From Nitrospiraceae bacterium (GTDB lineage Bacteria; Nitrospirota; Nitrospiria; Nitrospirales; Nitrospiraceae): a stretch of 63,810 nt of DNA. Position 1 is the first letter of the stretch. Each line of letters opens with the position of its first letter. The translations under genes were made by a program, and so were the position numbers. Shown here one piece after another: positions 56,336 to 60,243 of the stretch. The notes beneath the pieces are model-generated. The model ran no database searches. It saw nothing but the letters and a program-made list of their open reading frames with translations, and was not told the DNA's origin. Location of the stretch: the NCBI GenBank assembly GCA_013140715.1, contig JABFSG010000025.1, positions 1-63,810 on the forward strand, given 5' to 3'.

Positions 56336-56667
56336 TCGCTTGCCCTCCCAGGTGAAACATGTTTTGCCAGACGAACTTGCTCAACGGGCAGGAGTGGAGG
56401 CCCCGGGACCTCTTCACGCTCATGCACCATCAGTACTTGGCCTTGCAGCGGCGGAACCAGCCCAAACCTTTCGGTCGCCACCTTCGCGATCCGCTCCGGA
56501 GACGTCAACGCAGAGAACTTTACTTGCAGCTGATCCCGTTCTCGTTCCAGCAATACTTTCTGCGTCTTCAATCGTTCGACGTGATAACCCAACCGAACGA
56601 CATCGACACGTTCCCACACAAATACGAAGATCAACATCACACCAGCCACAATCGTCAACATCTTCAT
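56332..56667 (-). CDS. ftsL: Cell division protein FtsL
   Basis: The product is 111 residues. An N-terminal membrane segment (about 3-21, MLTIVAGVMLIFVFVW) is followed by a leucine-rich coiled coil (LGYHVERLKTQKVLLERERDQLQ) and a short C-terminal region with ERIAKVATERFGLVPP. FtsL is part of the FtsQLB complex. Identification rests on position between rsmH and ftsI plus this layout. Its ATG overlaps the rsmH stop. Confidence 0.9.
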   Translation of the reverse strand: MKMLTIVAGVMLIFVFVWERVDVVRLGYHVERLKTQKVLLERERDQLQVKFSALTSPERIAKVATERFGLVPPLQGQVLMVHEREEVPGPPLLPVEQVRLAKHVSPGRASE

Positions 56668-57581
56668 GGCCGACCTCCCGTGAATGCCCGTTGAGCAGCC
56701 CGCAACTTGGCGCTACGGGATCGAGGATTCCTGTCCGACTCCTCGCTGGTGGGGACCTGCGGCCTCTTGGTCAGCACCATCAGTGCAGGATTGTCCTTGC
56801 CGGAAAGCGCCCGAAACGTGTGTTTGACAATCCGATCTTCAAGCGAATGGAATGAAATCACGCAGAGACGGCCGCCGGGAGACAAGACATCCACCGCATC
56901 GCGCAATGCCGGCTCCAGACAGTCGAGCTCTTGATTCACTGCAATGCGAAAGGCCTGAAACGTACGAGTGGCACAGTGAATACGACCATGCCGATAATTC
57001 GCAGGAACGGCTCCTTCGATTGCAGAGACCAACTCTTTTGTCGTTGCCAATGGCTGACGTTCACGCGCACGAACAATGGCACGCGCGATTCGCCGAGAAA
57101 ACCGCTCTTCGCCGAACTGAAAAATCGTGTCGGCCAACTGTGTTTCCGTCCATCGATTGATCAGACCAGCTGCTGTTCCACTCATGGATTGATCCATACG
57201 CATGTCCAACGGGCCATCCCCCCGAAAGCTAAAGCCGCGGGCTGGGTCTTCCAACTGCACGGACGAGACGCCGAGATCAAACAAAATTCCATCGACCTTC
57301 TCAATACCAATGGCAGCGAGATGCTGCTTCAGATCCACAAAATGACCGTGGCGAAGGATCGCACGGTCACCGAATCGCGCGAGCCTTTTCTGACTAGCTG
57401 CAATGGCCACCTCATCGCGGTCGAGCCCAATAAGTCTGCTTCCGGACCCACTTGCCTGGATGAGTTTTTCAGCATGCCCACTGTATCCCACCGTACAGTC
57501 AAGATAGGTTTGGTCTTCAGCTTGAATAAGCCAGAATAAAGCCTCTTCTGCCATTACTTCGGTATGTCCAGAAACCTCCAT
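56664..57581 (-). CDS. rsmH: 16S rRNA (cytosine1402-N4)-methyltransferase RsmH (MraW)
   Basis: The product is about 305 residues. It begins MEVSGHTEVMAEEALFWL, then the SAM site YLDCTVGYSGHAEKLIQ and LIGLDRDEVA. GILFDLGVSSVQLEDPARGFSF is the signature segment, and FRIAVNQEL and VISFHSLEDRIVK follow. I start at the ATG at 57581, although no ribosome site is visible. It is the first gene of the dcw transcript, read from the promoter at 57628-57655. In most bacteria mraZ would precede it, and here it does not. Confidence 0.95.
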   Translation of the reverse strand: MEVSGHTEVMAEEALFWLIQAEDQTYLDCTVGYSGHAEKLIQASGSGSRLIGLDRDEVAIAASQKRLARFGDRAILRHGHFVDLKQHLAAIGIEKVDGILFDLGVSSVQLEDPARGFSFRGDGPLDMRMDQSMSGTAAGLINRWTETQLADTIFQFGEERFSRRIARAIVRARERQPLATTKELVSAIEGAVPANYRHGRIHCATRTFQAFRIAVNQELDCLEPALRDAVDVLSPGGRLCVISFHSLEDRIVKHTFRALSGKDNPALMVLTKRPQVPTSEESDRNPRSRSAKLRAAQRAFTGGRP

Positions 57582-57593
57582 ACATTTACTGTA

Positions 57594-57617
57594 TCCAGAT
57601 ACACCCACTTTCTCCCA
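57594..57617 (-). promoter_or_regulatory. MraZ-type operator in the dcw leader
   Basis: On the minus strand TGGG occurs at 57614-57617 and 57604-57607, and TGGA at 57594-57597, exactly 10 bases apart. The text reads TGGGAGAAAG, then TGGGTGTATC, then TGGA. MraZ is known to bind TGGG-type boxes at this spacing (E. coli) and AAAGTGGG-type boxes (Mycoplasma); both forms are present. The boxes lie about +4 to +27 from the predicted start of transcription, as in E. coli. Confidence 0.65.
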
Positions 57618-57627
57618 CCAATGCGGC

Positions 57628-57655
57628 AGTATACACCGCAAATAAGACTTGTCAA
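57628..57655 (-). promoter_or_regulatory. Strong promoter of the dcw cluster
   Basis: A perfect TTGACA (57650-57655), a 16-base spacer and TATACT (57628-57633). It is the best match to the sigma-70 consensus in the window and lies about 45 bases before rsmH. It could drive 15 or more genes. Confidence 0.75.
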
Positions 57656-58021
57656 CAGGAAATTCATGGACTTATGAAGTTCTGGTTGTCGCTGATTTTT
57701 CTCTGATATCAAAAGGAATTCGGAACTGAGAGGGGTTATCGGTAGCCCTGTGGGGAGAAAATATTCCTGTTTTTGCTTGAACTCTACGGAGAGGCGTAGG
57801 AAGCCTCTAGCTGGCTACGGACAGAGAAACCCTAGAGGGTAAGCTGAAAACTTACTTCATTCATAGCGAAACGACTTCGCCTCTTGGCCACATAGTGAGC
57901 TGTGGCATGGATCTTGGTTACTGCATACACATAGTTCAGATAAAAATGACAGGGCATAACAGCAACCTCAAGGTTGGTGAGTTTCATTGACAAGAATTCA
58001 GCCTGGGCTGAGAATGGATTC
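57656..58021. other. Intergenic region between dcw promoter and repeat-protein gene
   Basis: These 366 bases are non-coding, more AT-rich than the rest. They hold a small hairpin (GGCGTAGGAAGCC, near 57792-57804) and a direct repeat of CCTCTAG/CCCTAGAGGG near 57803-57840. A plus promoter candidate lies at its right end. No gene was recognised. Confidence 0.5.
57987..58015 (+). promoter_or_regulatory. Promoter candidate for the repeat-protein gene
   Basis: A perfect TTGACA (57987-57992), a 17-base spacer and GAGAAT (58010-58015). Transcription would begin at about the ATG at 58022, giving a leaderless message. No other ribosome site is evident there. Confidence 0.35.
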
Positions 58022-59077
58022 ATGCGATCGTTCATAGCTGCCAAAATACTCTGTTTGATTGTGTTGATAGGAGGGATAGCCTTCACATTCAGCACCATGA
58101 CAGCCACCATGGCCCACGCGGCATCATCGCTCTACTGGTGCCCCGATCAAAAGGCCGATCGGCAATATTCAGCGAAGCAAGGACCAGGGTGCGTACCGCT
58201 TGTTGAGAAGGAAGAGACCAAGACATCGGACCAAGAAGGGGATGTACCCGCAGGCAACAAACCATTACACGACTTCAAGGTTGAAAACCTACAGAGTGAC
58301 GTATCGACATTTCTAAGCAAATATCGCAATTTCCTCGATTGCTGCAAAACCGACCTCACTGAACTTCAGCAGGTCGAAGAGATGGGAAAGGAAGTCGGAG
58401 ATCTACTCACATCCACGCAATCCAACATGTCGAATCATTCGATGGCCTCGCGCGGCATCATGCTCCGAGAAATGATTCCGACTGTCGCCAGAGCCCGCGC
58501 TGATCTCAAGAAGCTGCGCGCGACGCTCGAACGCATCGGCACTTCGACCAACATCCGCGACTCAGGAGACTTTGAAAGCTCAGGTCGGGAAACGCGCGCA
58601 ATCCGAGAAATGGAAGGATCGATTGAGACAGACATCCGTGCACCGAAGCTCTCGACCGGGCCAAAGACCGGGGCCAGCATCGGCAACACGCCGGCAGCAG
58701 GGCCGAGTATCGGAAAAACTCCGAAAACAGGCAACACGATCGGCGCAGAAGGCGTGACCGGGCAACACATCGGGGCCTCATCGAAAAACAGCCACGACAT
58801 CGGTAACTCGGGCCCGGCAGGATTTGGAATCGGCGCCACGGGCCGCGCGGGCCCTTCAATCGGCGAGTCTAGCCTCAATAGCGAATCGTCTTCGGCAGTC
58901 GGCTCGTCGCTGCAACGTTCCACTGTGGGATCGAGCCTCTCGGACTCAACGGTAGGATCGAGTTTCGGCGGCTCAAGTGTCGGCTCAAGCCTCGGAGAGT
59001 CTGCTGTCGGCTCGTCGTTCGGGTCGTCTTCGGTCGGTTCGACTATCCAGGAACGGAGCACCGGCCCGCAACCGTAA
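58022..59077 (+). CDS. Exported protein with exact 10- and 9-residue repeat tracts
   Basis: The product is 351 residues of unknown function. A signal peptide (about 1-33, ending AHA-A) is followed by a segment with a cysteine pair (YWCPDQKADRQY, C40; GPGCVPL, C57). A helical region (about 85-175) carries C107 and C108. Residues 217-286 hold seven 10-residue units with IG at the same place in each (TGASIGNTPA, AGPSIGKTPK, TGNTIGAEGV and so on). Residues 293-346 hold six 9-residue units VGSS(L/F)xxS(T/S/A). The repeats may form a beta-roll or stalk. The ATG at 58022 gives the signal peptide; the frame also opens at a TTG at 57974. Nothing nearby names a role. Confidence 0.8.
   Translation: MRSFIAAKILCLIVLIGGIAFTFSTMTATMAHAASSLYWCPDQKADRQYSAKQGPGCVPLVEKEETKTSDQEGDVPAGNKPLHDFKVENLQSDVSTFLSKYRNFLDCCKTDLTELQQVEEMGKEVGDLLTSTQSNMSNHSMASRGIMLREMIPTVARARADLKKLRATLERIGTSTNIRDSGDFESSGRETRAIREMEGSIETDIRAPKLSTGPKTGASIGNTPAAGPSIGKTPKTGNTIGAEGVTGQHIGASSKNSHDIGNSGPAGFGIGATGRAGPSIGESSLNSESSSAVGSSLQRSTVGSSLSDSTVGSSFGGSSVGSSLGESAVGSSFGSSSVGSTIQERSTGPQP
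58670..58879 (+). repeat. Seven in-frame 10-residue coding repeats
   Basis: Each 30-base unit encodes x-G-x-x-I-G-x4. The isoleucine-glycine pair recurs at residues 220, 230, 240, 250, 260, 270 and 280 of the exported protein without a single slip. The codons differ between units, so selection on the protein has maintained the phase rather than a recent DNA expansion. Confidence 0.85.
58898..59059 (+). repeat. Six in-frame 9-residue coding repeats
   Basis: Each 27-base unit encodes V-G-S-S/T-(L/F/I)-x-x-S-(T/S/A), beginning at residues 293, 302, 311, 320, 329 and 338. It directly follows the 10-residue tract, so the protein changes repeat period from 10 to 9. Confidence 0.85.
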
Positions 59078-59082
59078 TCCTC

Positions 59083-60102
59083 TCACTGGCTAGGGAGTAC
59101 AGTCGGTACTGACTCCCATGTCGTCCCTCGATTGTGACTCCTATATAAACCACTTCCGTTCGTCCCTGCATAGAACATGTTCGGATCGGTCGGACTCTGC
59201 ACGAGCGATCGGATGTTGAGCGTCGCAAGACCCGTATTCAGCGTACTCCAGGTCGCCCCGCCATCTTCGCTCCGATGGACACCCTCCCGACCAGCCAGAT
59301 AAATGACGCCATTTTTCGTACGGTCTAGGATCATTGAAAACAACATTTGGTCTTGCAGAGACTGTCCGATCCGCACCCAAGCCTTCCCGCCATCCATCGT
59401 CTTATAGAGTCCAGCCAACGTGGAAGCATAAACCGTATCAGGCTCAAACGGATCGACCAACACCGCTGTCACGCTGAGCGCACGCGACGATTTAATGATG
59501 TCGGGAGACACGAGACCATTGTTCACCTTTTCCCAGTGACCGGCCTCGTCGATCGTTTTGTACACGCCGCCGCTCGTACCCGCATATAAGATCGCCGGTC
59601 TCGTCGGATCCATACCCAATGTGACCACCATCAACACTTCCTTCATCCCTTCCATTTTCTTCACCCAATGCTCGCCGCCGTCTTTCGTTTCGGACACACC
59701 CATCGTCGTGGCGAGATAGATATGATTGTTGTCCGCCGGATCGAAGACAAACTGATTGACAACCGACGAGATCGTGGCATCGTCCAACCCCGAACGCATT
59801 GAAGCCCAGCGCTGCCCGCCATCGTGACTTTTAAAGACCGCATCGCCCTTCGTACCCGCGTAGACCGTGGCCGGATAGACTGGATCAACGGCCATCGAAA
59901 TCACGCGCGAATGGCTCATCCCTTTCGAGAGGTTTGCCCAAGTCTGCCCCCCATCGCGCGTCTTATAGATGTAGTCGTTCGTCGCGACATAGATGATGTC
60001 GGGATTCTTCGGATTGAGCTGGATGACGACAATGGGATCGCTGCGATTGCAGCCGGCGAGAGAGAGCGCCAAAAAAAGAGTGAGAATAAGAATTCTAGCC
60101 AT
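59083..60102 (-). CDS. Lipoprotein with seven Asp-box (BNR/sortilin-like) repeats
   Basis: The product is 339 residues from the ATG at 60102. A lipoprotein signal, ILTLFLALSLAGC, places the lipid-attached cysteine at residue 18. Seven Asp-box-like units follow: KTRDGGQTW, KSHDGGQRW, ETKDGGEHW, KTIDEAGHW, KTMDGGKAW, RSEDGGATW and RSHNRGTTW. Each is preceded by a strand such as TVYAGT or IYLAT. This is a seven-bladed propeller in the photosystem-stability-factor/sortilin style. Two boxes (4 and 7) are degenerate. It converges with the repeat protein, the genes 5 bases apart, with an inverted repeat GGGAGT/ACTCCC at 59092-59118. Confidence 0.85.
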   Translation of the reverse strand: MARILILTLFLALSLAGCNRSDPIVVIQLNPKNPDIIYVATNDYIYKTRDGGQTWANLSKGMSHSRVISMAVDPVYPATVYAGTKGDAVFKSHDGGQRWASMRSGLDDATISSVVNQFVFDPADNNHIYLATTMGVSETKDGGEHWVKKMEGMKEVLMVVTLGMDPTRPAILYAGTSGGVYKTIDEAGHWEKVNNGLVSPDIIKSSRALSVTAVLVDPFEPDTVYASTLAGLYKTMDGGKAWVRIGQSLQDQMLFSMILDRTKNGVIYLAGREGVHRSEDGGATWSTLNTGLATLNIRSLVQSPTDPNMFYAGTNGSGLYRSHNRGTTWESVPTVLPSQ

Positions 60103-60120
60103 GCACAAGACAAGGCCTTG

Positions 60121-60243
60121 CGGGATGGTCAAAAATGTCGTCCAGCGAGGCCGCAGCGAGTGAAGGCCCGAAGCGTACCCTTGCAGTACGTTGAGGGTCT
60201 GAACGATGCGAGAACAAAGCTGACGGCATTTTTCACCATCCCG
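60121..60243. repeat. Palindromic repeat family 1, copy d (diverged ends)
   Basis: The arms are CGGGATGGTCAAAAATG and CATTTTTCACCATCCCG, and the core is AGCGTACCCTTGCAGTACGTTG. The ends differ from the other copies (GCAGGCTGC) but still pair with each other, so both arms changed together. It lies between yajQ (stop 8 bases away) and the Asp-box gene. Confidence 0.85.

Follow-up and report, generated by a model that had tools for sequence, protein, structure and literature searches.

A gene in the genome of a Nitrospiraceae bacterium encodes a 351-residue protein whose C-terminal tail consists of two exact amino acid repeats of different length. This locus raises the question of what keeps such repeats in register and what role a protein with this tail might have. 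The window analyzed is the whole 63,810 nucleotide stretch of contig JABFSG010000025.1. Nitrospira are major nitrite-oxidising and comammox bacteria. To our knowledge little is known of their attachment, aggregation and phage encounters.

The features of the locus are as follows.

56664..57641, minus strand: rsmH (MraW), Pfam PF01795, a conserved neighbour and the first gene of a division and cell-wall cluster; divergent from the gene, with the order kept in most loci
57987..58015, plus strand: predicted sigma-70 promoter, TTGACA (57987-57992), spacer of 17, GAGAAT (58010-58015); near-consensus, with a conserved layout
58022..59077, plus strand: whole coding sequence, 351 amino acids plus stop, from the ATG at 58022 to the stop at 59077; dN/dS below 0.2 in every section, with third-position variation
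58022..58120, plus strand: predicted signal peptide of residues 1-33, probably cleaved after AHA, as read from the sequence
58124..58201, plus strand: short N-terminal segment YWCPDQ...GPGCVPL with C40 (58139-58141) and C57 (58190-58192)
58280..58639, plus strand: helical domain predicted by AlphaFold2, with an invariant CC pair at 58340-58345 (kept in 52/52)
58655..58864, plus strand: seven 10-residue units, each with an IG end; dN/dS 0.096
58850..58879, plus strand: GPSIGESSLN, the counterpart (by alignment and motif table) of the C-terminal motif G-x-x-[IV]-G-D-S-x-L-N in members without 9-residue units
58865..58897, plus strand: inter-array linker of 11 residues, ESSLNSESSSA, as read from the sequence
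58898..59059, plus strand: six 9-residue units VGS[ST][LFI]xxSx, an extension limited to one gene clade; dN/dS 0.045
59083..60132, minus strand: BNR-propeller lipoprotein gene, Pfam PF15902, PF14870 and PF02012; a conserved, convergent neighbour, clustered in 27/30 loci

Gene structure and repeat arrays

The distance from GAGAAT to the ATG is 6 bases and the expected transcription start falls on the ATG. The same promoter layout, usually with a spacer of 17 and a distance of 6, was found at 47 of 54 loci compared to 0.8% per locus in shuffled DNA, the related loci not being independent. A strict form of the pattern had four matches in the whole genome compared to one for the reversed control. 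A conserved leaderless mRNA is predicted across the family. An N-terminal extension from TTG 57974 is unlikely, as the apparent translated conservation is that of the conserved promoter and length changes break the frame. A frame or antisense artefact was ruled out by the third-codon-position variation. An antisense ORF of 208 aa (58435-59061) was without support.

The protein is predicted to be exported based on its signal peptide. Four cysteines follow the signal peptide (C40, C57, C107, and C108), confirming the original prediction, and all four are invariant in 52 of 52 family members. To judge from the sequence, the C40-C57 segment is probably a disulfide-stapled loop. No lipobox was read in the sequence and the first cysteine lies at residue 40, seven positions past the predicted cleavage site, so the protein does not classify as a bacterial lipoprotein. 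No outer-membrane anchor or known sorting signal was recognized in the 351 residues.

The seven units ending in IG are spaced exactly 10 residues apart. The 9-residue array is also in exact register, with units 1-5 starting with VGSS and unit 6 with VGST. When the tail was shuffled 20,000 times, in-phase runs of IG reached at most 3 compared to 7 observed, and those of VGS at most 2 compared to 6 observed. A chance origin of both arrays was rejected as shuffled tails never matched either. The in-phase 10- and 9-residue arrays first described are therefore real and far beyond chance, and the counts of seven and six units stand. The direct switch from one to the other does not, since the 11-residue linker intervenes, and the description of the 9-residue units as beginning with VGSS applies to the first five units and fails for the sixth.

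Synonymous codons differ within and between repeat units. In a comparison across eight relatives, variation at codon positions 1, 2, and 3 was seen in 48, 35, and 125 of the 169 codons of the N-terminal part (dN/dS 0.166). The corresponding counts were 17, 17, and 60 of 70 codons for the 10-residue units (dN/dS 0.096) and 5, 5, and 44 of 54 codons for the 9-residue units (dN/dS 0.045). Constraint is highest in the repeats, which are under the strongest purifying selection in the protein. Recent copying of repeats is unlikely to be the cause of the likeness between units because the arrays have a dS similar to that of the other parts of the protein. The third-position variation and low dN/dS mean that selection on the protein was correctly proposed as what keeps the repeat phase.

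Family distribution and variation of the tail

The protein was present in 108 of 110 sampled Nitrospiraceae genomes and in 0 of 285 others of the phylum (395 genomes searched), the family being assigned from named records of the loci. With no occurrence elsewhere in the sampled phylum, the gene is a signature of the Nitrospiraceae. The same number of genomes was recovered with an N-terminal-domain profile built from 19 divergent members. There is usually one gene copy per genome, and no paralogues were found elsewhere in the genome of the window. Two paralogues, L046 and L057, lie away from the conserved locus; they show the same pattern of cysteines and have a clean tail with the 10-residue period, xPTGxxIG. 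Their neighbours differ with no common theme, and one adjoins an RND efflux system.

No family match to the protein was found in Pfam, NCBIfam, or PHROGs. The N-terminal-domain profile aligned to PDB 9y6s, a DUF4200 protein (E 0.0012; second chain E 0.087), which was read as chance helix similarity. Foldseek gave no match at E 0.001, and absence from its match list excludes nothing. Foldseek and the family searches gave no functional clue, and nothing on the protein family was found in literature searches. The family appears to be undescribed, in agreement with the original prediction.

The two Nitrospiraceae genomes without the gene (G161 and G165) are small at 1.7-1.8 Mb. A decayed remnant of the gene was found at the site in G165 (L071). 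A third small genome, G314 (L058), has a broken gene copy. Members of the family thus typically carry the gene, yet it is dispensable and is lost as genomes shrink, which argues against a core enzyme. No sign of an enzyme was found in the protein. In G161, a 1.8 Mb genome from the genus of the window, the site between rsmH and the BNR-propeller gene (L070 1446-2770) holds other, broken-looking ORFs instead. These look like pieces of an ORF for an exported beta-barrel protein of the outer membrane, apparently disrupted by a frameshift.

At the locus, members without 9-residue units have G-x-x-[IV]-G-D-S-x-[LF]-N, slightly varied, near the C-terminus, followed by one or two basic residues. An exact period of 10 was found in L041, L046, L048, and L057, of 13 in L042, L045, L047, and L051, and of 16 in L050 (observed autocorrelation reached by 0/400 shuffles in each case). 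A weak period-13 signal was seen in L052, L053, L054, and L043, where it was reached by 315, 36, 34, and 29 of 400 shuffles, respectively. The repeat period of the tail thus goes with the allele, and the layout with two periods is a single example of this variation among alleles. The window protein keeps the GPSIGESSLN motif and then continues into the 9-residue units. Many relatives have VGSSLQNR as the last of these units, which resembles a second copy of the terminal motif. The 9-residue block may be a later extension beyond an older terminus, perhaps formed when that ending was multiplied.

Loss of the repeats in close relatives had been set beforehand as a test of the original prediction. 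The outcome was mixed, as the 10-residue units are kept and the 9-residue units drop in number or are absent. Within the same genus their count falls to five in L007, L038, and L039 and to two in L015. The block is absent outside one gene clade.

Divergent alleles at a conserved locus

The gene sits between rsmH and the BNR-propeller lipoprotein gene in nearly all loci with enough sequence, and adjoins rsmH-ftsL-ftsI-murE in almost all loci. In several genera asnS intervenes between the gene and rsmH. Carriers of the 9-residue units form one clade in the gene tree (support 100/99). The tree of the neighbour does not group them and the neighbour data reject such a clade (p-AU 0.0028). With the gene data, a single clade was rejected for the set from genus g2 (2.7e-5) and for L040 with L048 (0.0105), but not at 0.05 for L042 with L050 (p-AU 0.076); these groups were chosen after viewing the trees, which makes the p-values optimistic. 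Tail architecture (10-residue compared to 13-residue layout) tracks the gene tree and not that of the neighbour.

The DNA alignments show where the divergence lies. Between L042 and L050, both of genus g4, the flanking blocks have 91.6 and 93.9% identity and just 92 bp of the gene aligns. Between L040 and L048 (g10) the flanks are 84% identical and 59 bp of the gene align. L053 and L054, which carry the same allele class, align straight through at 79.5%. The pattern is most simply explained by replacement of whole, strongly divergent alleles at a fixed locus, with the caveats of long branches and incongruent neighbours. Divergent alleles exchanged at one locus were thus found, one of the three within-genus gene tests falling short of 0.05.

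Fast divergence of one orthologue together with long-branch tree error could mimic allele replacement, the tail then being an ordinary low-complexity linker. The long branches in L050, L051, and L044 fit this alternative, as does the p-AU of 0.076 when L042 and L050 are held together. It is nevertheless improbable, as the other within-genus conflicts were rejected at 0.0105 and 2.7e-5, the tail layout agrees with the gene tree, and members of one allele class have a low dN/dS (0.05-0.17), unlike a fast-diverging gene.

In the comparison of L042 (2166-3373) with L050 the divergent block runs almost exactly between the ends of asnS and of the BNR-propeller gene, promoter included. This is as if promoter and gene move together. 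The BNR-propeller neighbour (59083-60132, minus strand) is itself incongruent. In the genus of the window the L031 and L033 versions are 78-81% identical and those of L036 and L037 92%.

Whole-allele exchange is usual for outward-facing proteins, as at surface-protein loci. The gene appears to be exchanged as an allelic cassette, set against the generally low recombination reported in population genomics of waterworks Nitrospira (PMC8751384). The same study reports positive selection on phage-related genes, which makes phage pressure a reasonable guess for the allele replacement, and only a guess.

Predicted structure and possible roles

AlphaFold2 predicted helices at residues 54-74, 79-102, 105-147, and 154-173 of the mature protein. 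The pLDDT was mostly 66-87 in the first three helices and 44-52 after, with block means up to 87. The tail in the whole-protein model had a pLDDT of about 30-39 with no strands or other secondary structure and, when predicted alone, a mean pLDDT of 44.5 and a pTM of 0.09; ten related sequences were used, making this weak evidence on the tail. The models suggest that the head is probably a helical bundle and that the tail is unstructured and probably flexible. The helical part resembles many three-helix bundles, with scores ordinary for such folds. Against spectrin-like three-helix bundles and CorA/ZntB cytoplasmic domains the best Z was 10.0 over 94 residues, a level common for helical bundles.

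The favoured reading, with a rough probability of 0.42, is tentatively that of an exported envelope or cell-surface protein displaying a repeated short motif on a flexible tail. It is favoured because purifying selection is strongest in the repeats, all four cysteines are invariant and the periods are allele-specific. It is also favoured because the divergent alleles lie between 84-94% identical flanks, the gene and neighbour trees conflict, the tail is predicted to be unstructured behind a helical head and the gene is dispensable in small genomes. The small cysteine-bearing head and the helical bundle would provide anchoring or self-assembly. The long flexible tail would present many in-phase copies of approximately G-x-x-[IV]-G-x-[ST] to a partner. 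Such binding would be multivalent and weak, and directed to a second envelope protein, a polysaccharide, or an adjacent surface. The protein would be exposed at the surface, where phages, predators, or partners may drive the replacement of alleles. Counting against a surface role, selection within an allele class is strongly purifying, whereas relaxed or positive selection is seen in many surface antigens, and no outer-membrane anchor, lipoprotein cysteine, or known sorting signal was recognized.

A beta-roll had been among the structures originally suggested for the tail. A beta-solenoid of this kind might form once the protein is secreted, perhaps requiring oligomerization or calcium, and serve as a stalk or flat binding face. 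The exact periods kept by selection fit such a fold, as do the two hydrophobic positions (V1 and L/F5) which recur in every 9-residue unit, and oligomeric solenoids can escape a single-chain AlphaFold2 prediction based on ten sequences. However, the 10-residue units have one hydrophobic residue each, the tail has low pLDDT both in the whole protein (31-39) and alone, with no strands, and the period changes within the chain and between alleles, which a continuous solenoid would tolerate poorly. The solenoid is considered unlikely.

Other bacteria have O-glycosylated periplasmic proteins with a Ser/Thr-rich low-complexity tail after a folded head. The tail studied here, rich in Ser, Thr, Pro, and Gly, could likewise carry O-linked glycans in the periplasm or at the surface, with the repeats as glycosylation sites. 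Its position behind a folded head and the conserved S/T positions of the 9-residue units are consistent with this. No glycosylation gene was found near the locus, however, and the exact spacing and conserved I/V-G pairs exceed what a carrier needs. A role as glycan carrier is likewise doubtful.

A more specific proposal is that the protein is a lineage-wide envelope component of nitrifiers whose tail acts as a multivalent display, and that its allele-specific period (9, 10, 13, or 16) sets partner specificity or blocks co-assembly of unlike alleles, whole alleles being traded between species at one locus under pressure from phages or competitors. This reading is rather improbable. A periplasmic accessory of cell-wall synthesis or division, suggested by the adjoining rsmH-ftsL-ftsI-murE cluster, is improbable, as the gene is divergent from the cluster with its own predicted promoter, has asnS in between in several genera and is lost or broken in small genomes that retain rsmH.

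If the protein displays its flexible tail on the cell surface it would be a candidate factor in recognition between strains, in floc formation, or in the entry of phages, and the differences in repeat period offer a ready set of natural variants. Exported, repetitive, and polymorphic proteins are already known as a general kind, and the allele-specific exact period is the unusual part. RTX nonapeptide calcium beta-rolls are also exported proteins with exact nine-residue repeats. The units here are VGSS[LF]xxS[ST], with no GGxGxDxUx, no calcium-binding Asp pattern and no Pfam match, and so do not classify as RTX. The midge antifreeze protein is a ten-residue solenoid and shares the ten-residue period, whereas here there is no cysteine in the repeats and no solenoid is predicted. 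Trimeric autotransporter adhesins of the YadA type differ in that no match to the YadA anchor was found in Pfam at E up to 10 and the repeat tail forms the C-terminal end of the chain here. PE_PGRS and other Gly-rich exported repeat proteins similarly have a Gly-rich repetitive tail behind a helical head and are found in one bacterial group. The head here is unrelated to theirs by sequence search, the units are regular rather than GGxGGx and there is usually one gene per genome. Polymorphic surface-protein loci share the fixed locus, conserved neighbours, and strongly divergent exchanged alleles. They differ from this locus, where surface exposure is presumed, in that here purifying selection is strong within an allele class and the exact repeat period is a trait of the allele.
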